From a virus: DNA of 55,712 bases. Positions 3,353-51,617 of the stretch are shown here, one piece after another; the first letter of the stretch is position 1; each line of letters begins with the position of its first letter. The position numbers and the translations under genes were made by a program. The notes beneath the pieces were generated by a model, which was given only the letters and a program-made list of their open reading frames with translations, had not been told where the DNA came from and ran no database searches. The DNA lies in IMG/VR virus record IMGVR_UViG_3300040807_003706, positions 1 through 55,712 of that record; one strand, 5' to 3'.

Positions 3353-6204
3353 TACACATAGCTCCCAAGGTAATTGCCGTAAACAGTAGCGCCAACTTGC
3401 CAGAAAACAATAGCATCCTTGTTCGTTAAAGTAGGTGCAATGTTGCCAATATTCGACACCCAAGATACCGCTGGCCAAGTCACTGTATAAGTGGCGCCGT
3501 TTTCCAGCATCAACAGTACACTTTGGCCACTTTCTAAGGACTCAGTGAAGGTGGTGTTTCCAGATAATGTTTTTGTTTGAATGCCACCATTCGCTGGATC
3601 TAAGTTTGTATCAGCGAGAGCATATACAGTGTCGGAAGTCTCGACAAAGGTTTGCTGTGCGCTAAATGTTTGCGCATTTGTAAGCCGAGCAATATTATTG
3701 CTTACCGTACCAGCAAGAGTGACATTACTGCTCCCATTAATAGAAACACTTCCAGCAAGGTCTCCGCTTAAAGAGATCGTCCTTGCATTTGCCCAAGTGT
3801 TAGCGGTAGATGCATTGCCTGACAAAGAAGCAGTGATTACATTGGCCGCAAAGCTCCCATTGGCATCACGGGAAACAATTGCATTGACAGAACTTGCCGG
3901 AGTGGCGTTGGAAGTAACGGTAAAAATACCAGCTTCGGTATTGACGCTTCCAGAAATACCGCTGCCGACAGTGCTTGCCTTTCTAACATAAGAACCAGTG
4001 GTGTCAGTTCCCAAAGCAACGGAATTACTGACAATATCACTCGTCAAAGTGACATTTTGACTTCCATCAAAAACAACAGAGCCACTTACATCTCCACTTA
4101 ATGTGATCGTCACTCCAGAACTTAAGGCGCCTGCAAAAGCCACAGTTCCACTGGCCAATGTATTAACTGCATTTCCCACAAAGGCAGTGGTTGCAATTTG
4201 AGTGGTTGAAGTGCCAGCGGTTGCAGTGGGCGCAGTTGGAGTGCCAGACAAGCTGGCGTTAACAACTGCCGCCTTTGCATCCAATGCAGATTGCAAACCA
4301 TCTACATTGCTAATAATGTGATTATGAGAATCATCGGCAACAACTCCACTGATGGTAACATTGCTGCTGCCGTCAAAAACAGCACTACCACTTAGATCAC
4401 CCGCCAAGCCAATGCTCACTCCAGATGCCAATGCAGAGGCGGTATTGGCATTGCCACTAATGGAAATGCCCCAGGTACCTGTTGCACCACCGCCTGTTTT
4501 AGTGGGGGCGTCATTCGCAATTTCACTATTGACAAATGCAGTGGTTGCTAATTGAGTGGTATTAGTGCCCACTGGTGCAGTGGTCCCAGAAACATGACCA
4601 GTGAAAGTGCCTCCGCTAATAGGGATGGCATTAGCCGCCAAGTCATAAGCGCTTTTAACAGCACTTGCAGTGGCCGCTAAGCCACTGCTTGCGCTGTTAA
4701 CACCGTTATAAAGTTGAACAATGCCAGCCGCAGCAGTATTGCCAGAAATCAGGACATTGGAAGTAAGCTTTGTCGTTCCACTGTTAAGAATTCCCAACAC
4801 CTGATCGGGCGTTAGATCTTGTGGATTACCACCAGCAACAGCACCCTTAATTGTCAAAGCCGTCATATCAGACAGCTTTAAATTGCTAACAGAATTATCT
4901 GCAATTGTTGCGTCGTTTAAAACAGAGAAAACAAGAGGATCAGTATCAAGAACGGGATTATTTGTAACTTGAGTAAATTGAAGATTGCCATTTGTTGTGC
5001 CACTCTGCACAAACATAAAAATACCAGTCTTCACCTCTGCGCTACTATTAGCATCATCTGTGCGAGTAAACACTGCGCTAATGCCAGGCGCTGCTGCGGT
5101 TGTTAATGCATAGATGCCATTTTGAGATGCAGTAGTTTGATCCTTGACTAATACTCGCGTGCCGACATTGGTAATATTTACTCCGTCAAAAGAAGGAGTG
5201 CCAGTTCCTGTTACTGTAAGCGTAAAAGCAGGACTGCCCGCATAAGTAGAAACTACATTGGCTGTAGTAGCCGCAATTACTGCTTCTTTAATACTTAAAC
5301 CAGCACTAACTTGATCTACGTAAGCACGATTTGCGGCGTCAGTCGCACCAACTGGCGAACCTACATCGGTAATACGATAATTATTGACACTTACATTCTG
5401 AGTGGCGCCACCAAGGATATCATCGGGATTTGCAATGATTGCAATGTCGGTGCCATCAGTTGTTACGCTAATAGTGCTATTTCCAGCTTTTACACCTTTA
5501 ATTTCGCCTCGAAATTCATTGGCCACCTCTACGGTGTCGTTTACAATAAGACTTTCACCGCCAACGCCAACGTTGGTAACGTATTTCAATCCACCAATAC
5601 CTTTTAATGCTTGTTGAGCCGTGTCTGCGCCAGTGCCACCTTGGCTAATAGAAAGAGCAGTTGTGAGGCCGGTTAATCCAGTAATATCACTATTGCTTCC
5701 TGCTTTTGCTGCTCCCAAATTAGAGCGGGCACTAGACGCTGTGCTTGCGCCCGTGCCTCCTTTGTTAACTTCAAGGGGAGAAGCAGAAGCTAGGTCGTTA
5801 ATATTGATTTCAGACGCGTTGACGCCAATCGTCACGTCTACACGATTTTCGCCACTATTATCAACACCGCTAACCGTAGCCGCAGTGCCGGCGATAAAAT
5901 TCAATTCTTGCCGCGCTCCAATTTCGCCGCCACCAGATGAAACGATGGTACGCTGAGTGGTTGTATCATTAACCACTGAAAGGGTGAGCGTATTGTTTAA
6001 ATCGTTATACGATGCATTGATACCAGTGCCACCAGAAGTGAGCGTAGCGACTACATCCTGCAAGTCCTCTTTCAAGGACGCATACGAAATTTTCTTTGTT
6101 ACGCCTAGCGACGGATTTGTAGTGTTATCAACAATTACAAATACGTCTTCGTTATTGGGAGTGACAAGCTCAACAAGCTCCGAAATCAACCGTGTTTGAG
6201 CCAT
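3352..6204 (-). CDS. Long repetitive tail fibre protein
   Basis: 950 residues. The N-terminus (MAQTRLISELVELVTPNNED, VTKKISYASLK) is the attachment segment typical of cyanophage fibres. The shaft contains repeated units: GGTGASTA/GGTGADTA, SGNANTAS/SGNASTAN, LSGDLSGS...FDGSSNVT (four near copies) and SGTPTAPTA...TTQIATTAFV. A central block (RVLVKDQTTASQNGIYALTT) is a frequent fibre insertion domain. The C-terminal ~70 residues (NTTFTESLESGQSVLLML..YTVTWPAVSW) form a beta domain also common at fibre ends. The internal repeats make it prone to domain exchange. The downstream propeller gene overlaps by one base. Confidence 0.9.
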   Translation of the reverse strand: MAQTRLISELVELVTPNNEDVFVIVDNTTNPSLGVTKKISYASLKEDLQDVVATLTSGGTGINASYNDLNNTLTLSVVNDTTTQRTIVSSGGGEIGARQELNFIAGTAATVSGVDNSGENRVDVTIGVNASEININDLASASPLEVNKGGTGASTASSARSNLGAAKAGSNSDITGLTGLTTALSISQGGTGADTAQQALKGIGGLKYVTNVGVGGESLIVNDTVEVANEFRGEIKGVKAGNSTISVTTDGTDIAIIANPDDILGGATQNVSVNNYRITDVGSPVGATDAANRAYVDQVSAGLSIKEAVIAATTANVVSTYAGSPAFTLTVTGTGTPSFDGVNITNVGTRVLVKDQTTASQNGIYALTTAAAPGISAVFTRTDDANSSAEVKTGIFMFVQSGTTNGNLQFTQVTNNPVLDTDPLVFSVLNDATIADNSVSNLKLSDMTALTIKGAVAGGNPQDLTPDQVLGILNSGTTKLTSNVLISGNTAAAGIVQLYNGVNSASSGLAATASAVKSAYDLAANAIPISGGTFTGHVSGTTAPVGTNTTQLATTAFVNSEIANDAPTKTGGGATGTWGISISGNANTASALASGVSIGLAGDLSGSAVFDGSSNVTISGVVADDSHNHIISNVDGLQSALDAKAAVVNASLSGTPTAPTATAGTSTTQIATTAFVGNAVNTLASGTVAFAGALSSGVTITLSGDVSGSVVFDGSQNVTLTSDIVSNSVALGTDTTGSYVRKASTVGSGISGSVNTEAGIFTVTSNATPASSVNAIVSRDANGSFAANVITASLSGNASTANTWANARTISLSGDLAGSVSINGSSNVTLAGTVSNNIARLTNAQTFSAQQTFVETSDTVYALADTNLDPANGGIQTKTLSGNTTFTESLESGQSVLLMLENGATYTVTWPAVSWVSNIGNIAPTLTNKDAIVFWQVGATVYGNYLGSYV

Positions 6205-18128: not shown

Positions 18129-21100
18129 TTAACGCTGGTTGTAAATAATGCCGCCAGGACGACTTTCTTTGAGAATGACGCTACGAACGGCGCCTTCCAA
18201 TTCGCGGCCTAGGGATTGACCTCCAGAGCCGTTAATTTGAGACGACGCTTGGCCATTGTTGACATTGACAACAATGTTAGTGGAGATGTTATTGCCAGCG
18301 CCGCCGCCAAGATCGACAGGGATTTTACGTCCGTCAGGCAGTGGCACAACGGCTTCGTTGAAACGACCTTCTCCGACAAGGCCAAGGGTGGGGCCTTTCA
18401 CCACTCCGCCGTTAGCAAAAGGAGTGAAACCACCTTCCCATACAGCGCCGTTTGCAGCAGTCAAGGCTACAGACCCTGGGAGAGGCGGTTTGGCGCCACC
18501 ACCACCTCCTCCTGTTAAGCCAGGCAGGAACATGCCAATGATTTGCACTGCAGCCCACTTGGCCAGTATTTGAGCAACCATATCGGCAAACATGCTTGCC
18601 ACGCTTCGAAAGGCATTCCCCAGCCCCTCTTGCCATGTTTGAGCACCAGTGGCGATGTCGGTAAATGCCTTGCCGAAAGCATCTCCAATGCCATTGGCCG
18701 CCGTGACAACCATGTTGGCTACGTTGGCTAATTTACCTAAGTCCTTTTCGGCTTGCTCGTAACCTTCGGAAATGATCACGCCAAACGGCTTCGGCCCCTG
18801 TGCCTCCGTTGCAGAAGCCTCGGTTTGCGCCTGCTGCCCAGGAAGAGCATCCCTCCCTTCGATGCGAAGACCAAGCTGTTTCTCCATTTCCCTGGTTATC
18901 GCTTGCAAATGAGCAAGACGCTCTTGTTCTGTTCTCGTTAAATCCTCTTTTGCCTGCAATTCGGCAATCGTAAGCTTTTGTTGATCAATACTCGTTTTCA
19001 ACTGCTCAATTTGAGCGTCGAGAGATTTCTTCTCTTCAGCAAAACGCTTCGCTATTTCTACCTTTAGCTTCGCAACGGCAGGCGTCACCCCGTTTAGAAC
19101 AAGGTCGTAATACTGTTTCACATAGGAAGTCTCTTCTTCCTGCGAAGCCACAATATCCTTAAGTTTCTTCTTGGTTTCTTCGTATTGAGTGTTTAAGTCA
19201 AGTTGCAACTGTAGCTGGCTACTGAGGATCGCCTCTTGACGCTGAAATTGCAGCTCGGCAAGTTTCGCCTTTTTCTCCTCCATTGGAATATTTTCCAGGA
19301 GTACCTGCTTGCCCTGATTCTCAAGTTCAGTGAGCTGCTTGAGCAGCTCAAGCTCAGACACTAAAATCTCATTGCCATTAATTCTTGCTGTTGCAATCTG
19401 CTTGTTAATTTCAAACAGTTTCTTTGCAAGTTCCAAGCGCAATTGGAGCTGTGGCAACTGGCTTTCACGCTCTTTCTTGGCCTTAGCTTTACCACCTTTG
19501 CCATCGCTTGTTGCGCCCAAATCAAGACCAGCACCAGGTCCGCCATATGTGAAGTCGTCCACCTTGGCTGGAGCTTGAGCATCAAGGGCGGCCTGGCCGC
19601 CCATGGCCTCAAATTGCCTCTGCAGTTGCTGCCTTCTCAACTCAAGGCTGTCAGTAGCCGCACCGCGACGTTTTCCGCTCGCTGCTCCACTTGCAATCTT
19701 TGCATTTACCTTGTCCAAGTCGCGCTTAACCTCGGCAACCGACATCATGCCAAGGAGTCTTCTCACCTCTCTAAATGCTGCACTAAAAGCTTTAATAATT
19801 GCAGAAGACACCTTTACAGCGACAGAAACCATGGTGCCGATAATACGAGCAAAGCCCGTAACTAGAACCCCCCAGTCACGCAAATATTCCGAAACAAACT
19901 GCTTGTTCTCATTCACCCAACTGGTGAATCCCTGGATTGTCTCGGTGAAGAAGTCTTGGAAGACAGCACCAGCAGGGCCAAGAGCAGAGCCAACGGCGAT
20001 TTGCATATCAGCCATCGCCTTCTCAAGGCGGCGCCCTGCAAATTCAGGGCCAGTGGCTAATCTTTCAGCAAACTTACCATAGTCTTCGTAGTTCTCCTTG
20101 GCGAACGTAACGAATTCCTTGATGCCAACTTCACCATTCTTGAGAGCATCTTGCAGCTCATCAAAGCTCATCTTGTTCGCTTGCGCGAACTTAATCACGG
20201 CGCCAGGGAAGCGCTCACCTAACTGGCCACGAAGTTCTTCCGCTTGAACACTGCCCTTGCTGAAGATTTGAACGATCGCACGCATGGCGCCGTCCACGTC
20301 TTCCAAAGAGCCCCCGACAGAAGACACCGCCAATACGGTGCCTTCCAAAATCTGCTGCGTATCTTGGACGGACAGTCCATATTGCTTTGTATTCACTCGC
20401 AGTTGAGTGAACTGGCGATACACCTGCTCCATAGGGACGACAAGTGTATTGCTGCTATCGGCAATGGCCTTTTGCGACTCAGCAAAATCCTTTGCATCGA
20501 TGGAGGCAAGGGCTAGGCCTCTTTGGAGCTGAGCAATGGTCGCAGCGCTCTTGGCGGCGCTGGAAATCATGCCGCTCATGTTGTCTACAGCCTGGCCAAT
20601 AGCAGCCCCTGCAAAAGCCCCAGCAGGGCCTCCCATGAGGCCGCCAGCAATGCCGCCTACAGCACTACCAACGCCGCCGCCAAGGCCTCCTCCGTAAAGG
20701 AATGCGCCACCAGCAGCACCAAGGCGTTGACCCCTGGTTAGTGGACGCCTAGTTTGCTTCGCAATGCCCCTTTCGGCTTCACGAATTTGTTTATTAAGCT
20801 CCCTCCATTCTTCGGTGTCGGGACTAATTTCTCTTGCCCTGTTTCTAAGAATGGTCAGCTTCGCTTCAAGCTGATTCAAACTGCCAGGAGTGAATGCTCC
20901 AAGCTGATTACTTAACTGAACGCTTTCAGCAAGTCTGCTCGTAGATTGGAGCTGGCCATTTAACTTGCCAATTTGCCCCTGAAGGTTGATCCACGCTTCA
21001 GTGTTAGGCGCAAGCTGCGAAGCTTCAATACTCGCAGCTTCAATTTGCTTGCGCAGTTGAACGAAACTACCAGCATCAAATGCACCTGCCTGCGCACCCA

Positions 21101-21407
21101 ATTGAATGGCGCGAGCTTGCATGCCACCACGCTCGCGCATGCCTTGCGCAACGCCCAAGCCAGTGGCTGTTTCCTGGAATCGCCTGCTTCCAATTCTTAA
21201 GCCAGACAATCGCCGCTCTATGGCGGCGATTTGCTTGTCAAGAGTTCTAAACGTGGCATCAAAACTGGTCCTCAAAGAGCCAGTGTCAATATCAATCTTG
21301 ATCTTCTTGCCATTGCGAGCAACATCTGCAATGGCCTTATTAACCTTCTCTAGCTCGCGAGCAATTGCGTTCGCGTTCGTAGAGAAATTAATCGTATAGC
21401 GTGCCAT
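18129..21407 (-). CDS. H: Tape measure protein
   Basis: 1092 residues, the longest gene here. Contains the TMP_N type domain (~300-480: VPMEQVYRQFTQLRVNTKQY, AQEELRGQLGERFPGAVIKF, AVGSALGPAGAVFQDFF), Gly/Ala-rich hydrophobic helices (~225-280), long coiled coils (~640-850) and a C-terminal Gly-rich segment (VVPLPDGRKIPVDLGGGAG). It sets tail length, spans the tube and is ejected with DNA. At about 1.5 angstrom per residue, 1092 residues implies a tail around 160 nm, which suits a siphovirus (inference). Confidence 0.93.
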   Translation of the reverse strand: MARYTINFSTNANAIARELEKVNKAIADVARNGKKIKIDIDTGSLRTSFDATFRTLDKQIAAIERRLSGLRIGSRRFQETATGLGVAQGMRERGGMQARAIQLGAQAGAFDAGSFVQLRKQIEAASIEASQLAPNTEAWINLQGQIGKLNGQLQSTSRLAESVQLSNQLGAFTPGSLNQLEAKLTILRNRAREISPDTEEWRELNKQIREAERGIAKQTRRPLTRGQRLGAAGGAFLYGGGLGGGVGSAVGGIAGGLMGGPAGAFAGAAIGQAVDNMSGMISSAAKSAATIAQLQRGLALASIDAKDFAESQKAIADSSNTLVVPMEQVYRQFTQLRVNTKQYGLSVQDTQQILEGTVLAVSSVGGSLEDVDGAMRAIVQIFSKGSVQAEELRGQLGERFPGAVIKFAQANKMSFDELQDALKNGEVGIKEFVTFAKENYEDYGKFAERLATGPEFAGRRLEKAMADMQIAVGSALGPAGAVFQDFFTETIQGFTSWVNENKQFVSEYLRDWGVLVTGFARIIGTMVSVAVKVSSAIIKAFSAAFREVRRLLGMMSVAEVKRDLDKVNAKIASGAASGKRRGAATDSLELRRQQLQRQFEAMGGQAALDAQAPAKVDDFTYGGPGAGLDLGATSDGKGGKAKAKKERESQLPQLQLRLELAKKLFEINKQIATARINGNEILVSELELLKQLTELENQGKQVLLENIPMEEKKAKLAELQFQRQEAILSSQLQLQLDLNTQYEETKKKLKDIVASQEEETSYVKQYYDLVLNGVTPAVAKLKVEIAKRFAEEKKSLDAQIEQLKTSIDQQKLTIAELQAKEDLTRTEQERLAHLQAITREMEKQLGLRIEGRDALPGQQAQTEASATEAQGPKPFGVIISEGYEQAEKDLGKLANVANMVVTAANGIGDAFGKAFTDIATGAQTWQEGLGNAFRSVASMFADMVAQILAKWAAVQIIGMFLPGLTGGGGGGAKPPLPGSVALTAANGAVWEGGFTPFANGGVVKGPTLGLVGEGRFNEAVVPLPDGRKIPVDLGGGAGNNISTNIVVNVNNGQASSQINGSGGQSLGRELEGAVRSVILKESRPGGIIYNQR

Positions 21408-41131: not shown

Positions 41132-41210
41132 GGCATTCTCCGCTGTATCTCTTCACGCTAAAGAGAGAATAATGGGAGGGAAGTAGTCAATAACACAATG
41201 TGCGAAAGCA

Positions 41211-41912
41211 TTAACTAAGTCTTAAGCTTTTCGCGCTTTTTCTTGGCTTCGCTTCTGCGTGATCAAGCTCCGCATTCTCTAGCTCCAACTTGCCCTCTTC
41301 TGTGACAGAAAATGTCTTGTCCTTCCTCTTTGTAATAAGCTTCTCCTCTTCTAAGTCCATCAACTGGTTGTAAATAGTTTTCGCTTTGTAGATGTCACGA
41401 TTTGCTTCGTGATGAATGATGGCATTCGATGTGACGAAATAATCGCACGTATCAAGATCATCAATGGCCCAAAGCGTATAGAGCCTTGCATTCTTGATAA
41501 ACCCTGGGATGCGCTGCTCCTGCTTCATCGTCTCTAGCAGCACAGAAGTGTTTTGCCTCATGGGCACCCATTTCACGTCGTCTTCAATGCCCTTGCCAAA
41601 TTTCACCTTGGCTTCAAGCGTTTGACAGGGTGCTTCCTCCTGCAAATACCTCTTGATCGCTGCAGACAGGCGAAACCACTCTCTCCTCTCTCTTGCCGCA
41701 TCGAAACGATCATGCAAATCCTTCTCCATTTCACGCGGAGCCTGAAAAATCTTCAGCACCACCAGCGTGTCCGCTGAACAAGTGAGAAACGATGCAAAAC
41801 GGTCTTGTGGCGATGTGGTGAAGCCGATTTTGACCATCCACGGCATCGACGACCATTGCACGAAATACACCCATCCGTCATTTTTGCGCTGCAAAGGCTT
41901 CTGCTTGACCAT
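41211..41912 (-). CDS. T5orf172-type GIY-YIG protein with winged-helix tail
   Basis: 233 residues from ATG at 41912. N-domain: GWVYFVQWSSMPWMVKIGFT (GIY-YIG core), RFASFLTC, then LVVLKIFQAPREMEKDLHDR FDAARERREWFRLS, the T5orf172 pattern with catalytic Arg and Glu. Residues ~135-225 resemble a winged helix: ARLYTLWAIDDLDTCDYFV... IYNQLMDLEEEKLITKRK. Probably a DNA-binding nuclease or regulator. Upstream is a long noncoding region with divergent transcription. Confidence 0.82.
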   Translation of the reverse strand: MVKQKPLQRKNDGWVYFVQWSSMPWMVKIGFTTSPQDRFASFLTCSADTLVVLKIFQAPREMEKDLHDRFDAARERREWFRLSAAIKRYLQEEAPCQTLEAKVKFGKGIEDDVKWVPMRQNTSVLLETMKQEQRIPGFIKNARLYTLWAIDDLDTCDYFVTSNAIIHHEANRDIYKAKTIYNQLMDLEEEKLITKRKDKTFSVTEEGKLELENAELDHAEAKPRKSAKSLRLS

Positions 41913-41959
41913 GGAAACGAGCCCAACTCTCCGCACTATACCTGGATCGGGAGTAAAAG

Positions 41960-42320
41960 GACAGAAACAGCTCCTTTCAGCTTACGTTATGCTGGATGCA
42001 TAGTGCAACGCCTGCCTTCTAACAGGCGACACTGACGAGCGACGCCTCACCAGTGATTCAGCACTAAGCGAGGGGCCGCCCCAAGCGGCCAACGAGCGCT
42101 CTAGAGCAACCAAAAGCTCTCGACGCCAAAGCCCCTCGCAAGCCTTCTAGGACTGGCAAATGTCCTTCCAGCCCTGAGACGCCGCCCTAAAAGCGGCGTC
42201 GCTCCAGGACGCCTGGTAAATGCAAGGGGAAAATGCGTGCAACTGCGCGGGTGAAGCAAAAACACACGTAAACAATGGCTTTCGGCACAAAAAGGCGCCC
42301 TCTTAGGGGCGCCTTTGTTC
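41960..42320. ncRNA. Structured noncoding region between divergent genes
   Basis: No gene is credible from 41937 to 42515. Stems visible: CGCCTG/CAGGCG (42009-42028); outer GCGAGGGGC/GCCCCTCGC (42068-42076 with 42131-42139) enclosing GGCCGC/GCGGCC and GCTCTAGAGC; GACGCCGC/GCGGCGTC (42178-42200); CCAGG/CCTGG (42204-42216). It ends in a terminator. Could be a structured RNA or leader; class unknown. Confidence 0.4.
42291..42316. terminator. Rho-independent terminator
   Basis: AAAGGCGCCC-TCTTAG-GGGCGCCTTT, symmetrical, T-run on the plus side (TTTGTT) and A-run on the other. Ends the structured region. Confidence 0.8.
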
Positions 42321-42515
42321 TGGAACAACAGCCAAAGAAACGATGGAGGGGAATGGTTGTTTCTCAATGCCTTCGGCGAGTTCTTGACCGGAAAAGCTTT
42401 TTTGAAAATCGTCTGTAACATTTATTCACAGGTGATTCAGAAGGGCACGATGCCCTGCGCATCGTTCAGTATCTCATCGCCTTAACCATGGATACTTTCT
42501 ATCTTCTTCTCGAAA

Positions 42516-43523
42516 ATGTCTTTGTACATAGTCGATTTTGGTAGCCTCTTTTGGCACATTCTCAGCGTGCAAACAGGCACCATCACACAACTCTCTCCTG
42601 AACAGTTCCGTACACTTGCTTGGCTCCCCAATGGAGCCAAGCTCATCTGCGAAGCTGCTCACCTCGGCACACCACGCACTGATTTCAGCCTTGCACAGGT
42701 GTACACCGAACAAGAGCTCCTCTCTCTATACGCTGCGCTCACAGCTAAGGGCTGTGAGCTGCGCTTGTTCCCACAAGGCATCACGGCTAAAGCCAGAGCA
42801 ATGGCGGGGATTAATGATAAAAGTGATAAAGGCGATCTTCTCGCTATTGCTTACTACGTCCAAAAATTTCCCAACACGCCCCTTAAGCGCCCTCCTACAT
42901 CGTTCGTCACTGAACGTCGCGTAGAAGCTGGCTGGACGTTCAAAAAAGAAAACGATGGCATCCTCAATGTGGCCCGTCGTTTCAAATATTTTCGCCACGA
43001 TGACTACGTGGCATTGTTCGTCGAACGTAATTTCGACGAACTAGCCTCGCGCTTGTCAAACAATGCAAAGGAATTTGTCCATTTGTCCGACGACTATCGT
43101 TCCAGAAAAAAAGGCAAAAGCTGGAATCAAGACAGCACGCGCAAATCACGCATCTACACGCTTGCCGCATTGTTCCTGCATCCTGATGGCTACGCCCGCA
43201 GACGCCCTGACACTGGCACACTGCCAGGCATTAATTGGCTAAAGCGCTATGTGCTTCATTTCAGCCCTTTCCATTTCAAGGGCGGCATTGCACGCTCCAA
43301 TTTGAAATGGCATGCTTTCCGCAATGAAGCCATTAACGCCCTCGGCACTCGCAAGGCATCGTCAAAAGGCAAAGTGCTCTCGCATTACGATTTCAACGAT
43401 GACCAGCACGAGCAATTCCGTCAATGCCGGAAGGAATTCATGGGAGCCGTCACGGAAACCATGCAAACCATTCGCGATATGGTGCAGGAAAAGCTTGAAA
43501 ATGGAGAGCTTGTCCTCAAATAG
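42516..43523 (+). CDS. Protein with RuvC/RNase H-like N-terminal signature (putative)
   Basis: 335 residues. MSLYIVDFGSLFWHILSVQT (D7 on strand 1), GAKLICEAAHLGTPRTDFSL (E46 on a mid strand), and DKSDKGDLLAIAYYVQKF (D101, D104, D107) parallel RuvC/RNase H folds, where acids sit at 'D', 'E' and 'K..D..DA.AIA'. The remaining ~215 residues (positively charged, KFYF/RRRP rich) are not recognised. The reading as a resolvase or nuclease is inference; it may be inactive or a different family. It is the only plus gene near here and is followed by a gene-poor stretch. Confidence 0.55.
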   Translation: MSLYIVDFGSLFWHILSVQTGTITQLSPEQFRTLAWLPNGAKLICEAAHLGTPRTDFSLAQVYTEQELLSLYAALTAKGCELRLFPQGITAKARAMAGINDKSDKGDLLAIAYYVQKFPNTPLKRPPTSFVTERRVEAGWTFKKENDGILNVARRFKYFRHDDYVALFVERNFDELASRLSNNAKEFVHLSDDYRSRKKGKSWNQDSTRKSRIYTLAALFLHPDGYARRRPDTGTLPGINWLKRYVLHFSPFHFKGGIARSNLKWHAFRNEAINALGTRKASSKGKVLSHYDFNDDQHEQFRQCRKEFMGAVTETMQTIRDMVQEKLENGELVLK

Positions 43524-43555
43524 GCAGCTATGATATGGGCACGCTTCCTTCATTC

Positions 43556-43760
43556 TGCCATGATTCTTCGCGCATCATTCAGTTCATCAGGAAGCTGCCT
43601 TCCTTTTGCTAACGCTTCATTCAGGTGGTCATAACGACACGCTCGTTATTCAACGCCTCATGAAGCCATAGCTCAACATTGCGCATCGCCTCTTTCAATC
43701 TGTCATAACGCTAACCACGCGCTATTCATCCCATCAAGAGGCATGCACATATGCATTAAG
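43556..43760 (-). pseudogene. Possible decayed coding remnant
   Basis: Minus-strand frames between 43760 and 43556 hold two short, related peptides, RYDRLKEAMRNVELWLHEAL and RYDHLNEALAKGRQLPDELN DARRIMAE, in different registers separated by stops. They look like repeats of one helical motif broken by frameshifts. It is small and uncertain. Confidence 0.25.
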
Positions 43761-43814
43761 GAAAATAGTTGATGAAAAATGGCGCCGTTTCTGGCAAGGG
43801 TATGCCCACGCCGA

Positions 43815-43829
43815 GAATGAGAATCATTC
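43815..43829. promoter_or_regulatory. Fur-like palindrome, left flank
   Basis: GAATGA-GAA-TCATTC perfect inverted repeat; similar to half-sites of ferric-uptake-regulator boxes (GATAAT/ATTATC type). 15 bases before the LexA-like box and about 160 bases upstream of the plus-strand coiled-coil gene. Confidence 0.4.
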
Positions 43830-43843
43830 CCGCTACCGCGCTG

Positions 43844-43859
43844 TAGTACATTTGCACCA
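43844..43859. promoter_or_regulatory. LexA-box-like site, left flank
   Basis: TAGTACATTTGCACCA: one perfect half (AGTAC) and one divergent half (GCACC). Its reverse complement is almost identical to boxes at 48216-48321 on the other side of the island. Confidence 0.55.
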
Positions 43860-43989
43860 TCAGCTTTGCTTATGGCAGGCATAGGCAGCGCTTATGTTAC
43901 AGAGTGTGACAATTGGCTCGATCGGCGCCGATTCGCGGTAGACTGAGGCACGAGCGAGAGATCGCTCGCCCGACCCTCGACAATCCGCC

Positions 43990-44145
43990 ATGGCCTCCCC
44001 CTCGATCGCCGACCTGTTCGCGGCTCAGCTCGCAGAGCTCGAGAAGCGCCACCAGGAGAGCGAGAAGCGCCTCGAGAGAATGATCAGCAGCGTTCGCGGC
44101 ATGATCAGCGAGCTCGAGAGCATCGATTTGGAATCAGAATGCTGA
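43990..44145 (+). CDS. Small coiled-coil protein, 51 aa
   Basis: ATG at 43990, TGA 44143-44145. MASPSIADLFAAQLAELEKR HQESEKRLERMISSVRGMIS: a single amphipathic coil, probably dimerising. Uses the island's codon style (CTC, GAG, AGC). Followed by a very strong terminator, so it is its own short transcript. The LexA-like and Fur-like sites lie upstream. No family recognised; could bind a partner through the coil. Confidence 0.7.
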   Translation: MASPSIADLFAAQLAELEKRHQESEKRLERMISSVRGMISELESIDLESEC

Positions 44146-44153
44146 TCACAACT

Positions 44154-44179
44154 AGGATCCGATACGGATCCTTTTTTTT
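44154..44179 (+). terminator. Strong Rho-independent terminator
   Basis: AGGATCC-GATAC-GGATCCT followed by eight T. Ends the coiled-coil gene transcript before the iterons. Confidence 0.92.
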
Positions 44180-44190
44180 GGCCCGCACTG

Positions 44191-44258
44191 ATACGAAATC
44201 GTATCACGACAAGGCGCAATACGAAATCGTATCACGACAAGGCGCAATACGAAATCAG
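44191..44258. repeat. Tandem iterons (28-base unit, two full copies plus part of a third)
   Basis: A 28-base unit is repeated exactly at 44191-44218 and 44219-44246, and the first bases recur from 44247. Each unit carries the near-palindrome GATACGAAATCGTATC (arms GATACGA and TCGTATC) then ACGACAAGGCGCA. The repeated palindrome at fixed 28-base spacing is typical of replication initiator binding sites. Confidence 0.9.
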
Positions 44259-44280
44259 TTTTCCACAGGCCTGTGGAAAA
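44259..44280. promoter_or_regulatory. Back-to-back DnaA boxes in a perfect palindrome
   Basis: TTTTCCACAGG is followed directly by its exact reverse complement, CCTGTGGAAAA. TTTTCCACA is the DnaA box reported for cyanobacteria, so there are two boxes in opposite orientation. It adjoins the iterons. Confidence 0.75.
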
Positions 44281-44413
44281 CGTCGGTGATCCCCCATCTG
44301 GCGTCTATGCGTGTGGCAGCATAGGAAGCCACAGAAAGAAGCCCGCCACCCTACGGGAGGGGAGCGGGCTCTAAGAGATGTCTCTGAGGCCTCAGGAGAG
44401 GCGAGGAATAGGC

Positions 44414-44656
44414 TCAGGGGAGGTAGTTTCGGCCTCTGTTGTATCCGAGCCTGTCGAGCTTTTGGCGGGAGGAGAGGGAGCGAAGGCGAAGGAGCCAGAG
44501 GCCTGGGAGGCGAAGGGAGAGGAGGCCGAGCCATCCTGATTCTCTGGTGTGCCACGAGGAGAAGGAGACTAGGAAGGGGAGGCTAGGGGGAGCGGAGCGG
44601 GAGACGATGAGGAGGGAGCGAGAGGAGCGAGAGGGGAGACGGTAGGAGCGGATCAT
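44414..44656 (-). CDS. Island protein, 80 aa, Ser/Leu/Arg-rich
   Basis: Starts at ATG 44656, overlapping the stop of the preceding gene as ATGA. MIRSYRLPSRSSRSLLIVSR ... WHTRESGWLGLLSLRLPGLW then LDRLGYNRGRNYLP. The coupling supports it, but composition follows the pyrimidine-rich strand, so the reading could be coincidental. Last gene of the island operon. No family seen. Confidence 0.45.
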   Translation of the reverse strand: MIRSYRLPSRSSRSLLIVSRSAPPSLPFLVSFSSWHTRESGWLGLLSLRLPGLWLLRLRSLSSRQKLDRLGYNRGRNYLP

Positions 44657-44883
44657 AAGAGCGCCTCCTCTGCCTCGGTCTCTGCGCAGAGGCGAGCCTC
44701 TGAGAGCTGCTCCTCGAGCTGAGAGATGAGGCTCTGCAGAGTGTAGGAGCGGGAGACGGAGGCCTCCTCGAGCGCGTCATACAGGGAGGAGAGCGCCTCC
44801 TCTGCCTCCTCGAGGGAGGCGAAGGAGGCCAGCTCCTCATCGTGGCCGTAATGGGAGCGAGCTGTGAGAGAGAAGGGAGCCAT
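44653..44883 (-). CDS. Island coiled-coil protein, 76 aa
   Basis: ATG at 44883, four bases after the stop of the DUF7227-like gene. MAPFSLTARSHYGHDEELAS then EEAEEALSSLYDALEEASVS and LISQLEEQLSEARLCAETEA: acidic helical hairpin. Clear amphipathic repeats rather than random composition. Function unknown. Confidence 0.65.
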   Translation of the reverse strand: MAPFSLTARSHYGHDEELASFASLEEAEEALSSLYDALEEASVSRSYTLQSLISQLEEQLSEARLCAETEAEEALL

Positions 44884-44887
44884 GGCC

Positions 44888-46003
44888 TCAAATGCGAGAG
44901 AAGGCGAAGGAGCCGCCACCAGCCATGGGAGCGAAGGTGCCAGAGCCAGGAGCGAGAGCGAAGCGAGAGGCCGCCGAAGGATCGGCTCCTCTCGATCGCT
45001 TGAGGCGAAGGAGAACAGCGAGGCCAGAGAAGCCAGGAGCGGGAGACGGATCGAGCATCCTGAGATCGTTTGCATCTCCATCGACGCACTGGAGGAGCGC
45101 CTCTCTCCCTCGATCATCGCGGAGGAGGAGGGAGCGCGGGAGCTCCTCTCCCTTGCCGATCAGCACGGGCACTGCCAGAGAGAAGCCTGCCTCGATGGCA
45201 TCGAGAGCGCGAGAGGCTCCTCCCTCACGATCAGCAGCGAGGGATGCCGTGGTGTGGATCCCTGCCTCTCTCATGGCCAGGAGGCCAGAGCGGCCGTAGA
45301 GGGGAGCCTTCGCGTAGTCGTACAGCTCGAGGAAGGGTACAGAGGCGAGCGCCTCGGGGATGGTGCGGATGCCGCAATCTATGGGAGCGCCGAACAGAGC
45401 CGAGAGGCTCGCGGCCTCTGCAGGAGAGAGGCGAACAGAGAGCCAGGCCTCAGTCCATGGGAGCTCTTGAGTGCCGTTAAGGCGAAGCGCGAAGGGGAGG
45501 CCGAGGCGCCGAGCCTTGCGATAGGAGAGGCCAGCCGCCCATAGGACGGAGAGAACGAAGGCCTCACGATCCGCGAGGAGCGCGAGAGCGCGGCGAGCAC
45601 GACACGCGGGGATTGCTGGGCTCATGCCTCCGTGCCCACTGTATGCGAGACAAAGCTCCTGACAGGCCTCCGAGGCAAAGGGGCAAGCATTAAAGAGGAG
45701 AGCTCGAGCGGTGAGGCCTTCTCTGTCTGCCAGAGCACGGATGCCTGGGAGCTCTCCCCTCACGGGAGAGGCATGAGAGCCAGGGGAGACGGCTCGAGCG
45801 AGAGCGCGAGCAGGGGGGAGATGGAGTATGGCAGAGAAGGCGAGACCGCTCCCCTTCGCGAGCTTCGCATTAGCAGAGCCTGAGGTGAGAACAGAATCCA
45901 CAGAGAGGCCAAACCTAGCGAGGAGGGAGCGGACACGCTCAGGAGCGCGAGGAGCGCGAGAGAGGCGAGCGGGAGCGGGGGGAGCCAGGAGAGCGGGAGC
46001 CAT
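44888..46003 (-). CDS. DUF7227/GP88-like protein
   Basis: 371 residues. N-region SANAKLAKGSGLAFSAILHL, Cys cluster NACPFASEACQELCLAYSGHG, then CRARRALALLADREAF, RLNGTQELPWTEAW, FLELYDYAKAPLYG, AADREGGASRALDAIEAGFS LAVPVLI, and CVDGDANDLRMLDP ending AVLLRLKR. This order (C-P-x-A...C...C, RLN, YDYxK, DGDxxDxRxxDP) is that of DUF7227, related to mycobacteriophage Gp88, of unknown function; the Cys set may bind a metal or Fe-S. It is the only island gene assigned to a known family, which shows the island is genuinely coding. Confidence 0.85.
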   Translation of the reverse strand: MAPALLAPPAPARLSRAPRAPERVRSLLARFGLSVDSVLTSGSANAKLAKGSGLAFSAILHLPPARALARAVSPGSHASPVRGELPGIRALADREGLTARALLFNACPFASEACQELCLAYSGHGGMSPAIPACRARRALALLADREAFVLSVLWAAGLSYRKARRLGLPFALRLNGTQELPWTEAWLSVRLSPAEAASLSALFGAPIDCGIRTIPEALASVPFLELYDYAKAPLYGRSGLLAMREAGIHTTASLAADREGGASRALDAIEAGFSLAVPVLIGKGEELPRSLLLRDDRGREALLQCVDGDANDLRMLDPSPAPGFSGLAVLLRLKRSRGADPSAASRFALAPGSGTFAPMAGGGSFAFSRI

Positions 46004-46032
46004 GAGATCAGCAGAGAAGGAGGGGAGGGGGA

Positions 46033-46050
46033 GGCCTCCTCGCGGAGGCC
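46033..46050 (-). terminator. Intergenic hairpin GGCCTCC-TCGC-GGAGGCC
   Basis: Perfect 7-bp stem between the 85-residue gene and the DUF7227-like gene. No T-run, so it may act as RNA processing or stabilising element. One of a set of similar hairpins in the island. Confidence 0.5.
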
Positions 46051-46064
46051 ATGAGAGGGAGAGC

Positions 46065-46322
46065 TCAGGAGAGCAGCAGAGAGGCAGAGGCGAGAGGGAG
46101 CCAGAGGAGAAAGGCCTCGAGCTCTGGCAGGCTCTGGCTCTCGTGAGCGATCGAGGGGGAGGCCGTCTCGATCAGCAGGTAAGAGCCACGATCGAAGGCG
46201 AGGCGAAGGCCTCGCGAGAGCGCGAGGAGGGAGAGCAGAGGCGCGGCCTCAGAGGCGCGATCGATAGAAGGGGAGGAGAGCATGAGAGGAGCGAGGCGAA
46301 CAGAGAGAAGGCCTCCCCCCAT
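46065..46322 (-). CDS. Island protein, 85 aa
   Basis: ATG at 46322 sits in the loop of a hairpin (46310-46336). MGGGLLSVRLAPLMLSSPSI, then LSRGLRLAFDRGSYLLIETA and SLPELEAFLLWLPLASASLL with a hydrophobic tail. The upstream gene stops 20 bases before. A frame covering 46065-46676 also exists but would overlap two other genes. Function unknown. Confidence 0.5.
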   Translation of the reverse strand: MGGGLLSVRLAPLMLSSPSIDRASEAAPLLSLLALSRGLRLAFDRGSYLLIETASPSIAHESQSLPELEAFLLWLPLASASLLLS

Positions 46323-46336
46323 GGGAGGGGGAGGCC
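46310..46336 (-). promoter_or_regulatory. Hairpin enclosing a start codon
   Basis: GGCCTCCCCC/GGGGGAGGCC with the ATG of the 85-residue gene in the loop. Could limit or time its translation. Confidence 0.4.
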
Positions 46337-46342
46337 AGGAGC

Positions 46343-46582
46343 TCAGGAGCGAGCGGAGCGCGAGAGCTTCTCTGCAGCATCGCAGGAGGCAGCAGCAGCG
46401 AGAGCCACAGAGGCAGCAGCAGCGGAGGCGAACAGAGCGAAGGGAGCGGCGAAGGGAGCAGCGGCTCGAGCGGAGGGAGCTAGAGCGATGCGGTTGCCGT
46501 AGGAGGAGGCACAGAGGCCGAAAGCTACAGAGCCCGCGAACAGAGCGAGCGTAGGAGCGAGAGCGCGAACAGAGCGGAGCAT
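46343..46582 (-). CDS. Island membrane-like protein, 79 aa
   Basis: MLRSVRALAPTLALFAGSVA FGLCASSYGNRIALAPSARA, then PFAAPFALFASAAAASVALA AAASCDAAEKLS: two hydrophobic segments (~8-25 and ~42-65), Ala-rich, suggesting a small membrane protein with both termini on one side. Preceded by the shared leader GCTCTCTGTTCTC. Small-residue TM segments are reminiscent of holins, but that is only resemblance. Confidence 0.6.
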   Translation of the reverse strand: MLRSVRALAPTLALFAGSVAFGLCASSYGNRIALAPSARAAAPFAAPFALFASAAAASVALAAAASCDAAEKLSRSARS

Positions 46583-46611
46583 GAGAACAGAGAGCGAGAG
46601 GGAAGGAGAGC

Positions 46612-46631
46612 GGGAGGCCTCGCGGCCTCCC
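46612..46631 (-). terminator. Intergenic hairpin GGGAGGCC-TCGC-GGCCTCCC
   Basis: Perfect 8-bp stem between the 38-residue and 79-residue genes. Same loop (TCGC) and arms as others in the island. Confidence 0.55.
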
Positions 46632-46639
46632 TTGAGAGA

Positions 46640-46756
46640 TCAGAGAAGGGAGGAGCGGAGCCCTTGCCAGAGGCAAATAACGGCAGAGGAGTCGTAACGA
46701 CCGCCAGAGCCCTGAGCGTTAACGATGATCAGAGCGGAGATAAAGTCGAGAGCCAT
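46640..46756 (-). CDS. Island protein, 38 aa
   Basis: ATG at 46756 preceded by the leader GCTCTCTGTTCTC; TGA at 46640-46642. MALDFISALIIVNAQGSGGR YDSSAVICLWQGLRSSLL. Short, hydrophobic start then a Gly-rich turn. The shared leader supports translation. Function unknown. Confidence 0.5.
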   Translation of the reverse strand: MALDFISALIIVNAQGSGGRYDSSAVICLWQGLRSSLL

Positions 46757-46822
46757 GAGAACAGAGAGCGAAGGAGCGAGGCGATCTCTCGCCTCATGCA
46801 CGCAATGGTAAGGCCTCGAGAG

Positions 46823-46850
46823 GGGGAGGCCAGAGCCTCCCCTCTCCTTT
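46823..46850. terminator. Hairpin with short T-run
   Basis: GGGGAGGC-CAGA-GCCTCCCC; on the plus strand followed by TCTCCTTTT. It occupies the spacer between the 55-residue and 38-residue genes. Confidence 0.5.
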
Positions 46851-46875
46851 TGAAATATTTCGTAACAATCCGCGA

Positions 46876-47043
46876 TCAGAGATCAGCAGAGGAGAGCTCC
46901 TCGAGATCAGAGAGAAAGGCCTCGATCGTGGCAGACGGCAGCCACCTAGCGAGCTCCTCGAGGAGGAGAGGGAGGCCAGAGGAGGCGAGGCCGAGCTCCT
47001 CGGCGCGATCGAGGAGCCGAGCCCGCAGGTAGGAGGGGAGCAT
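46876..47043 (-). CDS. Island helical protein, 55 aa
   Basis: ATG at 47043, TGA at 46876. MLPSYLRARLLDRAEELGLA, then LPLLLEELARWLPSATIEAF LSDLEELSS: a compact amphipathic helix bundle with charged faces. Sits 11 bases after the 94-residue gene. Real-looking sequence despite low-complexity DNA. No family. Confidence 0.65.
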   Translation of the reverse strand: MLPSYLRARLLDRAEELGLASSGLPLLLEELARWLPSATIEAFLSDLEELSSADL

Positions 47044-47054
47044 GAGAGGGAGCC

Positions 47055-47339
47055 TCAGGAGGAGAGATCAGCAGCAGAGAAGGAGAGCGGGAGCTCGATC
47101 GCCAGAGGGAGGCCATGGCGAAGGCGAAGGAGGGAGCGCCTCTCCCGTAGGAGGCGCTCCTCGGCCTCGCCAGAGAGGCGAGGGAGGAGGCGCTCGATCG
47201 TGGCGAGGCGCCTCTCGAGGAGGGAGAGCTCCTCGCGAGGAGGGAGCGCGAGAATAGCCTCGAGCTCAGAGGGGGAGAGCTCGCGGCCTTCGCTCTCTAC
47301 GGCAGAGCAGAGCGAGGCAAGCTCAGAGGGGGAGAGCAT
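47055..47339 (-). CDS. Island coiled-coil protein, 94 aa
   Basis: MLSPSELASLCSAVESEGRE LSPSELEAI (two LSPSEL segments), then LSLLERRLATIERLLPRLSG EAEERLLRERRSLLRLRHGL. Heptad-rich, alternately acidic and basic. Probably oligomeric. Between the 65-residue and 55-residue genes in the same operon. Confidence 0.65.
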   Translation of the reverse strand: MLSPSELASLCSAVESEGRELSPSELEAILALPPREELSLLERRLATIERLLPRLSGEAEERLLRERRSLLRLRHGLPLAIELPLSFSAADLSS

Positions 47340-47348
47340 GGCAGAGCC

Positions 47349-47546
47349 TCAGGAGACGGGAGAGAACAGGAGGGAGAGAAGCTCCTCGAGCGCCTCCTCG
47401 GCCTCGGCTCGAGCGGTAGGAGAGAGCGAAGGGGAGGCGAGCTCCTCCTCAAGCTCGCGAGCGAACAGAGCGGCCTCACGGCGAGAGGAGAAAGAGAACC
47501 GAGGCCATGAGAGATCAGAGGCGCTGATCTCATGAGTGGGAGCCAT
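47349..47546 (-). CDS. Island protein, 65 aa
   Basis: ATG at 47546; MAPTHEISASDLSWPRFSFS SRREAALFARELEEELASPS LSPTARAEAEEAL, acidic helical. The longer frame from 47609 crosses a hairpin and lacks the ATG context; rejected as start. Gap of 9 bases to the next gene. Function unknown. Confidence 0.6.
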   Translation of the reverse strand: MAPTHEISASDLSWPRFSFSSRREAALFARELEEELASPSLSPTARAEAEEALEELLSLLFSPVS

Positions 47547-47581
47547 GGGAGCCAGAACAGAGAACAGAGAACAGAGAGAGG

Positions 47582-47599
47582 GGAGGCCTCGCGGCCTCC
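47582..47599 (-). terminator. Intergenic hairpin GGAGGCC-TCGC-GGCCTCC
   Basis: Perfect 7-bp stem between the first and second gene of the island operon, same TCGC loop as at 46033 and 46612. Confidence 0.55.
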
Positions 47600-47613
47600 T
47601 GCAGGGCATAGCC

Positions 47614-47988
47614 TCAGATGAGGCCGAGGCGAGAGGCGCGGCGAAGGAGAGCGGAGCGGGAGGCCTTCGCCAGAGAGGAGGAGCTCTCGCCTGCCTCGAT
47701 CAGCGCGGCGACCAGCAGAGCGCGAGGGGAGGCAGAGGAGAGAGGCTCAGGCAGAGCAGAGGCGAGGCGCTCGAGCCAGGAGGCCAGAGCGCGAAGGGAG
47801 GGAGCGAGACGGCCTCGAGCCTGCCAGAGGCGAGCGGCGAGAGCATGGCAGAGAGCCACAGAGAACAGGAGCGCCTCGAGAGCCTGAGCGGCGATCGTCT
47901 CCCATGGGAGAGAGGAGAGCGCCTCGATCAGATCAGAGAGAGGAGGGAAGGAGGGAGAGGCGGAGCCTCTGAGAGAGGGAGCGAGCAT
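47614..47988 (-). CDS. First gene of island operon, 124 aa, membrane-helix protein
   Basis: ATG at 47988 preceded by the shared leader GCTCTCTGTTCTC; frames further upstream run into the repeat array. MLAPSLRGSASPSFPPLSDL IEAL, one hydrophobic helix (LEALLFSVALCHALAARLW), then basic/hydrophobic helices (LRALASWLERLASALPEPLS, ALLRRASRLGLI). Likely membrane associated. The operator array lies 120-430 bases upstream. Confidence 0.6.
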   Translation of the reverse strand: MLAPSLRGSASPSFPPLSDLIEALSSLPWETIAAQALEALLFSVALCHALAARLWQARGRLAPSLRALASWLERLASALPEPLSSASPRALLVAALIEAGESSSSLAKASRSALLRRASRLGLI

Positions 47989-48109
47989 GAGAACAGAGAG
48001 CAGAGAACAGAGAGGCGATCTCTCGCCTCGATCGAGACAATACAGAGAAGGAGAGCGAGCGGGAGGCCTCTCCTCGCGGATTGTCACATCTCTTAACGTA
48101 TGCGGCCAT

Positions 48110-48305
48110 GCGCATAGGCGCATAGCCTCTCAGGCTCTCTTGTTGCAACTGATTCTCAATTGCGACTAGGCCCATGCGGGTATGCGCATAGGCGCATAGG
48201 CGCATAGGCGCATAATGGTGCAAACGTACTATGCGTGCTGGCGCATAGGCGCATAGGCGCATAATGGTGCAGGTGTACTATGCCGGTATGCGCATAGGCG
48301 CATAG
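48110..48305. repeat. GCGCATAGG tandem repeats in four clusters
   Basis: GGCGCATA units occur at 48110-48125, 48184-48215 (about four copies), 48240-48264 (about three) and 48290-48305 (two). The last three clusters each lead directly into a LexA-like box, giving a compound unit of roughly 45 bases. Confidence 0.9.
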
Positions 48306-48321
48306 TGGTGCAGGTGTACTA
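48216..48321. promoter_or_regulatory. Three degenerate LexA-like boxes
   Basis: TGGTGCAAACGTACTA at 48216-48231, TGGTGCAGGTGTACTA at 48265-48280 and 48306-48321. Right half (GTACT) matches the cyanobacterial LexA box; left half is GGTGC rather than RGTAC. Confidence 0.65.
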
Positions 48322-48329
48322 CTGCTTAT

Positions 48330-48344
48330 TGAGAATGATTCTCA
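48330..48344. promoter_or_regulatory. Fur-box-like palindrome, right flank
   Basis: TGAGAAT-G-ATTCTCA, a perfect 7-1-7 palindrome, followed by TTATCA. Close to the Fur-box pattern. It lies between two LexA-like boxes, mirroring the left flank. Confidence 0.5.
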
Positions 48345-48357
48345 TTATCAAAAAAAG

Positions 48358-48413
48358 TAGTACAAATGTACTATCGGTAGTACAAATGTACTATCGGTAG
48401 TACAAGCGTACCA
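48358..48413. promoter_or_regulatory. Three LexA (SOS) boxes at 20-base spacing
   Basis: TAGTACAAATGTACTA at 48358-48373 and 48378-48393, and TAGTACAAGCGTACCA at 48398-48413. The first two fit the cyanobacterial LexA consensus RGTACNNNDGTWCB exactly; the third deviates in the spacer end and last half. Spacing is exactly 20 bases, so bound dimers would lie nearly on the same helix face. Confidence 0.75.
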
Positions 48414-48418
48414 GCGGC

Positions 48419-48440
48419 GGCGCCGAAAACGCCTTTTTTT
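48419..48440 (+). terminator. Rho-independent terminator-like hairpin
   Basis: GGCG-loop-CGCC followed by TTTTTTT. Just to the right of the operator array. Confidence 0.55.
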
Positions 48441-48498
48441 AAGCGCTTCTACTTTACCGCGTTTTAGAAAGTCCCTTACCATTTTTCAGCGGGTCTCT

Positions 48499-48573
48499 TT
48501 ACCGCTTTTTGGCGAGTCCCAGGCACAGCCAAGCCCAGGCTGCAAGAGAAATCAAAAGAAGGAGAAAAATCAC
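48499..48573 (-). CDS. Possible 24-aa membrane peptide
   Basis: GTG start overlapping the previous stop. MIFLLLLISLAAWAWLCLGL AKKR: one hydrophobic helix with a basic end. Very short, so it could be coincidental. Confidence 0.3.
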   Translation of the reverse strand: MIFLLLLISLAAWAWLCLGLAKKR

Positions 48574-48728
48574 CAGCCATGACCATCAAAGGCTGCCTTG
48601 ATGGCAGCCTCTTCATCAGAAAAAGGGCCGCCAATGATTGAATCATCATCATCGGCATAAAAATACCAACCTTCGACGAGTTCAGTGCCTTTGCAGGCAG
48701 ATTCCGAGAAAAAGTCAATGAGAATCAT
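48570..48728 (-). CDS. Small acidic protein, 52 aa
   Basis: ATG at 48728, TGA 48570-48572. MILIDFFSESACKGTELVEG WYFYADDDDSIIGGPFSDEE AAIKAAF. The motif 'W.FY.d....iiGPFsdeeeA' is seen in cyanobacterial and cyanophage small proteins. Two bases after the stop of the preceding gene. Function unknown. An overlapping 80-residue frame is rejected as less protein-like. Confidence 0.7.
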   Translation of the reverse strand: MILIDFFSESACKGTELVEGWYFYADDDDSIIGGPFSDEEAAIKAAFDGHGW

Positions 48729-48730
48729 CT

Positions 48731-49036
48731 TCAAGGTCTCTTAAATCGGCGTAAGTTGTTTTTCCAACTAAGTTCGCTCATTTCACCAGGGCGATAGAGG
48801 GAATAGGCAGGTTTGCCTAAAACCATCCCGCCTTCACCATCGTCAATGGGCTCAGCTTCATCGAGCCACATGCCAAGGCATTCAGAATCGTCGTTAAACA
48901 CGGCGACAGCCTGATCGCCATCCTCCATGCACACGCGAATGTGCATCAGCAGCTCCTTGAGGGAAGCTGCTTGATATTGTCCTTGAGTGGGGCTGAAATA
49001 GGGACCGTTGCTGGAGTAGTTACAGATGAAACGCAT
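48731..49036 (-). CDS. Hypothetical protein, 101 aa
   Basis: MRFICNYSSNGPYFSPTQGQ YQAASLKELLMHIRVCMEDG, then AVAVFNDDSECLGMWLDEAE. Alpha-beta composition, 'AVFNDD' strand-turn. Located just downstream of TATATA tracts that could form its promoter. No family recognised. Confidence 0.65.
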   Translation of the reverse strand: MRFICNYSSNGPYFSPTQGQYQAASLKELLMHIRVCMEDGDQAVAVFNDDSECLGMWLDEAEPIDDGEGGMVLGKPAYSLYRPGEMSELSWKNNLRRFKRP

Positions 49037-51275: not shown

Positions 51276-51617
51276 TAGAAAGGGGAGGTATGTCCAGAGG
51301 CTGCAGGCAGTCGCCAGCACTGCAGTTTTACCATTGTGCCCCATTTTCACTAGTCATTGCAGGGTTTTTAAAGATTGCTGCTGATTTGGTGGATGCCATG
51401 GTGGTGGCGGGTGCTACTATTTCTGAGTGGTCGGTCCTGGAGGTTTAACGGCTTCCCTCGTCATTAGCGTGGCGAGCCGCAAGGGTGGACGGGTGAGACA
51501 GTACGGGAACGGTCGTTACGGCCCTTCCAAGGCACAGCATGAGCCTCAGAGGCGTACTGTCCCTTTAGTTGAGCAATGCTCCTGAAGGTAAAATTGCTCA
51601 TCGGAGGCCATAAAGAG

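Follow-up and report, generated by a model that had tools for sequence, protein, structure and literature searches.

The element at 44.19–44.28 kb of the window, by which we mean the whole 55,712-bp stretch that was analysed (a linear IMG/VR virus record and a genome fragment), is real and non-random. From its sequence and those of its relatives, it is best read as part of a cyanophage replication origin, namely an exchangeable cassette for initiator binding. More specifically, we consider it somewhat better than an even chance (a probability of about 0.6) that the phage's own origin of replication lies here, with the element as the initiator-binding cassette that would recruit host DnaA.

Repeats and paired DnaA boxes of the element

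The element begins with a 28-bp unit, ATACGAAATCGTATCACGACAAGGCGCA (44191–44218), followed by an identical copy (44219–44246) and by the first 10 bases of a third (44247–44256), as an earlier note on this DNA had described. The palindromic core that the earlier note ascribed to each copy is present as an inverted repeat, but it is composed of 7 bp on either side of a central AA and is not gapless. Only copy 1 starts with GATACG; copies 2 and 3 begin with AATACG, and copy 3 is a half copy only. The repeat array is short (2.4 repeats of 28 bp) and abuts GTTTTCCACAGGCCTGTGGAAAAC, a gapless 24-bp palindrome, so that the perfect back-to-back pair of DnaA boxes reported earlier was found again (Table 1). 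Its identification as a pair of cyanobacterial boxes also holds, because TTTTCCACA is the cyanobacterial DnaA box (PMC4674748). Both boxes match the cyanobacterial consensus given in that study, and presumably that of the phage's own host, which is inferred from Synechococcus phage S-CBS4.

The 2 boxes within the palindrome are the only exact TTTTCCACA sequences in the window. Among the palindromes of the window it ranks second in length, after one of 26 bp at 51617 that resembles a terminator hairpin; the maximum palindrome length in 100 block shuffles of the window was 22 bp. With up to 3 mismatches allowed, the iteron motif was matched 4 times, where 0.22 matches were expected. Both the iteron motif and the boxes exceed chance by a wide margin. 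The window has 2 exact boxes and not a cluster of several (typically 3 or more). Origins commonly have more than 2 DnaA boxes. Origins with 1 or 2 boxes exist, and a cluster is typical and not strictly required (PMC4674748, PMC4980987).

The element had been placed inside a purine-rich island. It is located instead at the edge of that island, because it occupies a convergent gap (hereafter the slot) with terminators on its left and right: the gap lies between a 51-aa plus-strand ORF, which has its own terminator, and the terminator of a minus-strand operon.

Table 1. Features in and around the slot, in window positions
Feature	Position	Strand	Remark
Conserved core, AGCGCGGTA...GGGCATACCC...ATTTTTCATC	43755–43842	−	One match per genome where found
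LexA-box-like GTACATTTGCAC	43846–43857		Degenerate in the window; AGTACNNNNGTAC in several relatives; LexA box form from PMC3091678
Inverted repeat TGTTAC-AGAGT-GTGACA	43895–43911		Found by eye
51-aa coiled-coil-like ORF between slot and core	43990–44145	+	Present in close relatives
Terminator of the small plus-strand ORF	44154–44179	+	Left slot border in this phage
Inverted repeat GATACGA-AA-TCGTATC, first copy	44190–44205		Also in the same slot of relatives
28-bp direct repeat (two identical copies, then the first 10 bp of a third)	44191–44256		
24-bp palindrome, two back-to-back TTTTCCACA boxes with GGCC between	44258–44281		Box consensus from PMC4674748
Terminator-like hairpin of the GP88/island operon	44342–44357	−	Right slot border; equivalent hairpins in relatives
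GP88-family protein (PF17338)	44888–46003	−	First large gene beyond the slot; query for finding relatives

The phage, its relatives and the shared slot

The window includes genes for terminase, portal, head protease, tape measure, tail proteins and ribonucleotide reductase. Its TerL is 99.1% identical to that of S-CBS4 (HQ698895), whose genome is largely colinear. The terminase, portal and replication genes are closely related to those of S-CBS4 and stand in the same order; the replication genes, which lie beyond the window's extent, were read in the relative G010, whose primase/helicase is 87.6% identical to that of S-CBS4. Many proteins of G010 are 90–97% identical in amino acids to those of the window. 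Judged by these genes, the window is part of the genome of a virus of marine cyanobacteria, a cyanosiphovirus closely related to S-CBS4. G010 is 70.4 kb long, has a 178-bp end repeat with 1 mismatch and lacks the palindrome; G001 (73.4 kb) has an exact 127-bp end repeat and carries the palindrome; and G011 is 74.9 kb long. A direct nucleotide search of the phage collection gave no match of the locus.

Unlike the window, the S-CBS4 record (69,420 bp) has no equivalent of window 41.16–48.83 kb, and the locus is absent from it. The record starts at the equivalent of 41.16 kb and ends at the equivalent of 48.83 kb. The record breaks off within the homologue of the gene at 48731–49036, a sign of an assembly gap and not of a deletion, and the record of this isolate probably misses its island and origin. 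HQ698895.1 was deposited as "complete"; it is without a 7.7-kb stretch (window 41157–48832) and ends inside a gene.

Across the GP88-bearing cyanosiphoviruses, the core has the form AGCGCRGTA ... GGGNATACCCC ... AAAAGTGGCGCCATTTTTCATC, and a motif scan found it at most once per genome. RNAalifold analysis of 34 core sequences predicted no pairs and revealed no conserved fold, and an Rfam scan gave nothing above the gathering scores. In relatives, a sequence related to GTAAC/GTGACA adjoins the cassette, as judged by eye. A Pfam search with the 51-aa ORF gave no match above the cut-off. Beside the core, a 335-aa ORF (window 42516–43523, plus strand) has a weak match of the DEDD/IS110 transposase type (PF01548, E = 0.0018), which is below the cut-off; only 2 relatives of this ORF were found in IMG/VR (L407 and L408). 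The intergenic stretch at window 48170–48412 contains, by eye, tandem GCGCATAG repeats, a Fur-like inverted repeat at about 48330 and 3 LexA-box-like AGTACNNNNGTAC sites in a row.

The double box recurs in other viruses. The exact 22-bp palindrome was found in 9 further IMG/VR viral contigs, and double boxes separated by any 4-bp centre (N4-spaced) were found in at least 119 stretches, the centres among the matches listed being GGGT/ACCC (55), GGGC/GCCC (23) and GGCC (9). A control palindrome with matching base composition gave 0 matches. In about 15 distinct related phage neighbourhoods, the exact double box lies beside the same core, at a distance of about 60–64, 76–81 or 100–109 bp (two main groups with few between), and in the window the 51-aa gene separates the two. 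In GP88-bearing cyanosiphoviruses, the palindrome is flanked by the operon terminator on one side and the conserved core on the other, and the double box recurs across two GP88 groups that are only 27–32% identical to each other. The 38 loci found via the G001-type GP88 were gathered without regard to boxes; their double box is perfect in 5 (representing 3 distinct phages including that of the query) and at background, that is, chance level, in the others.

The double box was also considered as a standard motif of host oriC, and this was rejected. Only 1 of 386 sampled cyanobacterial genomes has an N4-spaced double box, and it is the one used as the search centre; therefore, the exact N4 arrangement is not a common feature of host oriC. 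A Candidatus Cyanaurora contig (L174:6572–6698) contains 7 exact DnaA boxes within some 130 bp, the same double box among them, and this cluster adjoins a GCS2-family gene, not dnaN.

Several other sequences occupy the slot in relatives. In relatives with GP88 identities of up to 94%, a DnaA box is missing from the slot; compared with L020 and L022, the window shows a net insertion of about 75 bp, which holds both the iterons and the palindrome. The other slot contents are TTAATCCCGA-N9-TCGGGATTAA, TTCTCAATAA-N-TTATTGAGAA, TATGCG..CGCATA and GATACG....CGTATC. The GATACG repeat of the window is also located in the slot of L299, L323, L355, L363, L366, L375, L350 and L297, and L350 is a second composite, in which a GATACG repeat of period 28 is fused to a double box with 1 change. 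The window and L010 are 88.8% identical over 41978–43808 and then diverge abruptly inside the core, with the palindrome beyond in both; that is to say, the core is also a mosaic junction. By these comparisons, the cassette is exchangeable in this phage family and the mosaics join at the core. The swapping of cassettes in the same slot suggests that DNA copying is plugged into different initiator proteins. We tentatively put forward, as a possibility, that the family keeps one origin core and swaps initiator-binding cassettes (the DnaA double box, the GATACG repeats and the first 3 of the other slot contents given above). Near-identical genomes would then use different initiator proteins, like plasmid incompatibility groups, and the window would represent 2 cassettes fused.

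GC skew, replication genes and the proposed origin

In 7 related genomes with differing cassettes, the global minimum of the detrended cumulative GC skew lies 0.14–1.4 kb from the core. The distance is 174 bp in G001, 322 bp in G010, 239 bp in G011, 160 bp in G026, 1408 bp in G027 and 1190 bp in G028; in G039, which has a GATACG cassette, the minimum is at 21200 and the core at 21062. The minimum in the window, which is a fragment, is at 44053. The skew maximum lies roughly opposite in G001, G010 and G027. When the GP88 region of G001 was masked, the minimum moved to 3909, inside the palindrome (3902–3923), and when the island of G010 was masked, it was still near the slot. The main genes on either side of the skew flip run in the same direction, and gene direction therefore does not account for the sign flip. 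The combined probability of p = 1.8e-8 treats the 7 genomes as independent and overstates the case, because these genomes are related. Coding-strand GC3 skew was significant for the plus-strand genes of G010 (p = 4e-4) and the minus-strand genes of G011 (p = 0.016), and was not significant in G001. In 3 low-GC virus contigs with double boxes, which are possibly fragments, the skew minimum is located elsewhere.

Near the core, the 100-bp segment of lowest stability, as measured by stacking energy, ranks in the top 0–3% of the genome and is a strong candidate in G011, G026, G027, G001 and G010; it ranks at only 10% in G039 and 18% in the window and is weak in both. A consistent AT-rich unwinding element was not found across these 6 relatives and the window. 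G010, which is among the closest relatives, has the skew minimum and no DnaA box, so the boxes cannot be indispensable for origin function throughout the family. On this comparison, the DnaA box is one option among several for the origin.

Searches for Pol A, Pol B and Pol III alpha in G000, G001, G010 and G011 gave no match, and a phage-encoded DnaA (PF08299, the DNA-binding domain) was found in none of 10 records. Both G001 and G010 have genes for a primase/helicase, a Sak-like annealing protein, an exonuclease, ThyX and a dCTP deaminase. A phage that supplies its own priming and unwinding functions and has no recognised polymerase would have to rely on the polymerase of the host, and DnaA boxes of the host consensus at a presumed origin would suit such dependence. 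The earlier note had proposed a plasmid-like origin, serving either the island as an episome or the phage as a host-dependent origin. The second alternative is favoured, indirectly, by the skew minimum in 7 genomes, the agreement of the boxes with the host consensus, the lack of polymerase matches in 4 genomes and the recurrence of exact boxes at the same syntenic spot; the first is not upheld (see below).

The sequences themselves show the element, its recurrence, the slot, the coincidence with the skew minimum and the lack of matches to the three polymerase families and to DnaA. DnaA binding, origin activity, helicase loading and bidirectionality are what we infer for the element, each protein step being modelled on knowledge of DnaA and iteron plasmids (PMC4674748, PMC4980987). 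The origin region would be composed of the cassette together with the conserved core (43.74–43.91 kb), which lies to the left of the cassette at a distance of about 0.45 kb. Host DnaA would bind the 2 back-to-back boxes, and the GATACG iterons would bind a second putative protein, from the phage or the host, beside DnaA. Acting together, the 2 proteins may open the origin/core region and assist in the loading of phage primase/helicase and host polymerase III. Forks would leave both ways, at least early in infection, which would give the GC-skew minimum here and the maximum roughly opposite, and recombination proteins would later make concatemers for packaging.

No description of DnaA boxes or of a mapped origin in cyanophages was found in the open-access literature. 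If the proposed reading holds, replication initiation in these phages, which have no recognised polymerase, is coupled to host DnaA, viral copying is linked to host cell-cycle control, and the initiator site is swapped as a module. The question of where and how cyanophages start replication could then be addressed directly with a single short DNA fragment and a single isolate (S-CBS4 on Synechococcus CB0101).

Competing readings and known systems

The main rival takes the slot as a transcriptional operator, whose swapped inverted repeats would bind regulators (host DnaA, LexA-like, Fur-like or phage repressors) and set the expression of transcripts starting near the core, with the double box sensing host DnaA. 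LexA-like AGTACNNNNGTAC and Fur-like inverted repeats are located in or near the slot and core, a TTGACA-like sequence is present by eye between cassette and core in some relatives, and DnaA is a known transcription factor (PMC8203912). Transcriptional control by DnaA is a live alternative. However, no sigma-70-type site scores in the window region, and an operator leaves unexplained both the GC-skew minimum in 7 genomes and its insensitivity to gene direction. We regard this reading as rather unlikely.

A DnaA decoy, in which hundreds of phage copies with 2 strong boxes each would soak up host DnaA and stop initiation on the host chromosome, is improbable. Exact-box clusters also exist in T4-like cyanomyoviruses such as S-PM2, and the box clusters of the 3 low-GC virus contigs lie away from the skew minimum, but 2 boxes per genome are few for titration, and the fixed syntenic slot, the alternative cassettes and the skew minimum would be left unexplained. 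That the palindrome acts only as an RNA hairpin, for example as a bidirectional terminator in its convergent intergenic gap, is very improbable: separate terminators flank it on both sides, the T before and the A after its stem are the reverse of a terminator, compensatory stem changes were not seen in relatives, and the exact 9-mers recur with a varying 4-nt centre, an exactness that comes by selection in those matches but not at the 38 GP88 loci, which were not so selected.

The purine-rich island as a plasmid-like element that replicates as an episome from its own iteron origin, which the earlier note had entertained, is the least credible reading of all; iterons and DnaA boxes do resemble iteron plasmid origins (PMC4980987), but the island (44.4–48.1 kb) is syntenic and roughly 70–93% identical in many related phage contigs and is therefore ordinary phage backbone, the closest island-bearing relatives have neither iterons nor boxes, and PHROG/Pfam scans of the neighbours tested (the 51-aa ORF, the 335-aa ORF, GP88 and other island ORFs) matched no Rep initiator family. 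The stretch at window 44380–48090 has an extreme strand bias, with 40% C and 10.6% A on the coding strand and with AC and GT dinucleotides at about a third of expectation; the commonest codon of GP88 is CTC, and the bias is conserved in many relatives.

Among known systems, N4-spaced double DnaA boxes are shared with the window by at least 2 T4-like cyanomyoviruses, S-PM2 (AJ630128.1, near 19.23 kb) and S-RIM32 (KU594606.1, near 61.9 kb), which belong to the wider set of double-box virus records. They are phages of a different type, with other 4-bp centres (ACGT in S-PM2), a third box in S-PM2 and no shared core seen. Cyanobacterial oriC, as in Synechococcus elongatus, Anabaena and Cyanothece, resembles the element in its 9-mer (PMC4674748) and in its location at the GC-skew minimum. 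The element differs from oriC in that (i) it has only 2 boxes; (ii) these are palindromic; (iii) they have a fixed 4-bp centre; and (iv) they are not beside dnaN or dnaA. Compared with the iteron origins of plasmids and phage-plasmids (P1, RK2 and F), the element has only 2.4 repeats of 28 bp, the core of these repeats is an inverted repeat, no Rep gene was recognised beside it, the cassette is absent from the closest relatives, and the window record has terminase, portal and tail genes. The likeness lies in the direct repeats beside DnaA boxes, and in iteron origins DnaA helps a second DNA-binding protein (PMC4980987).
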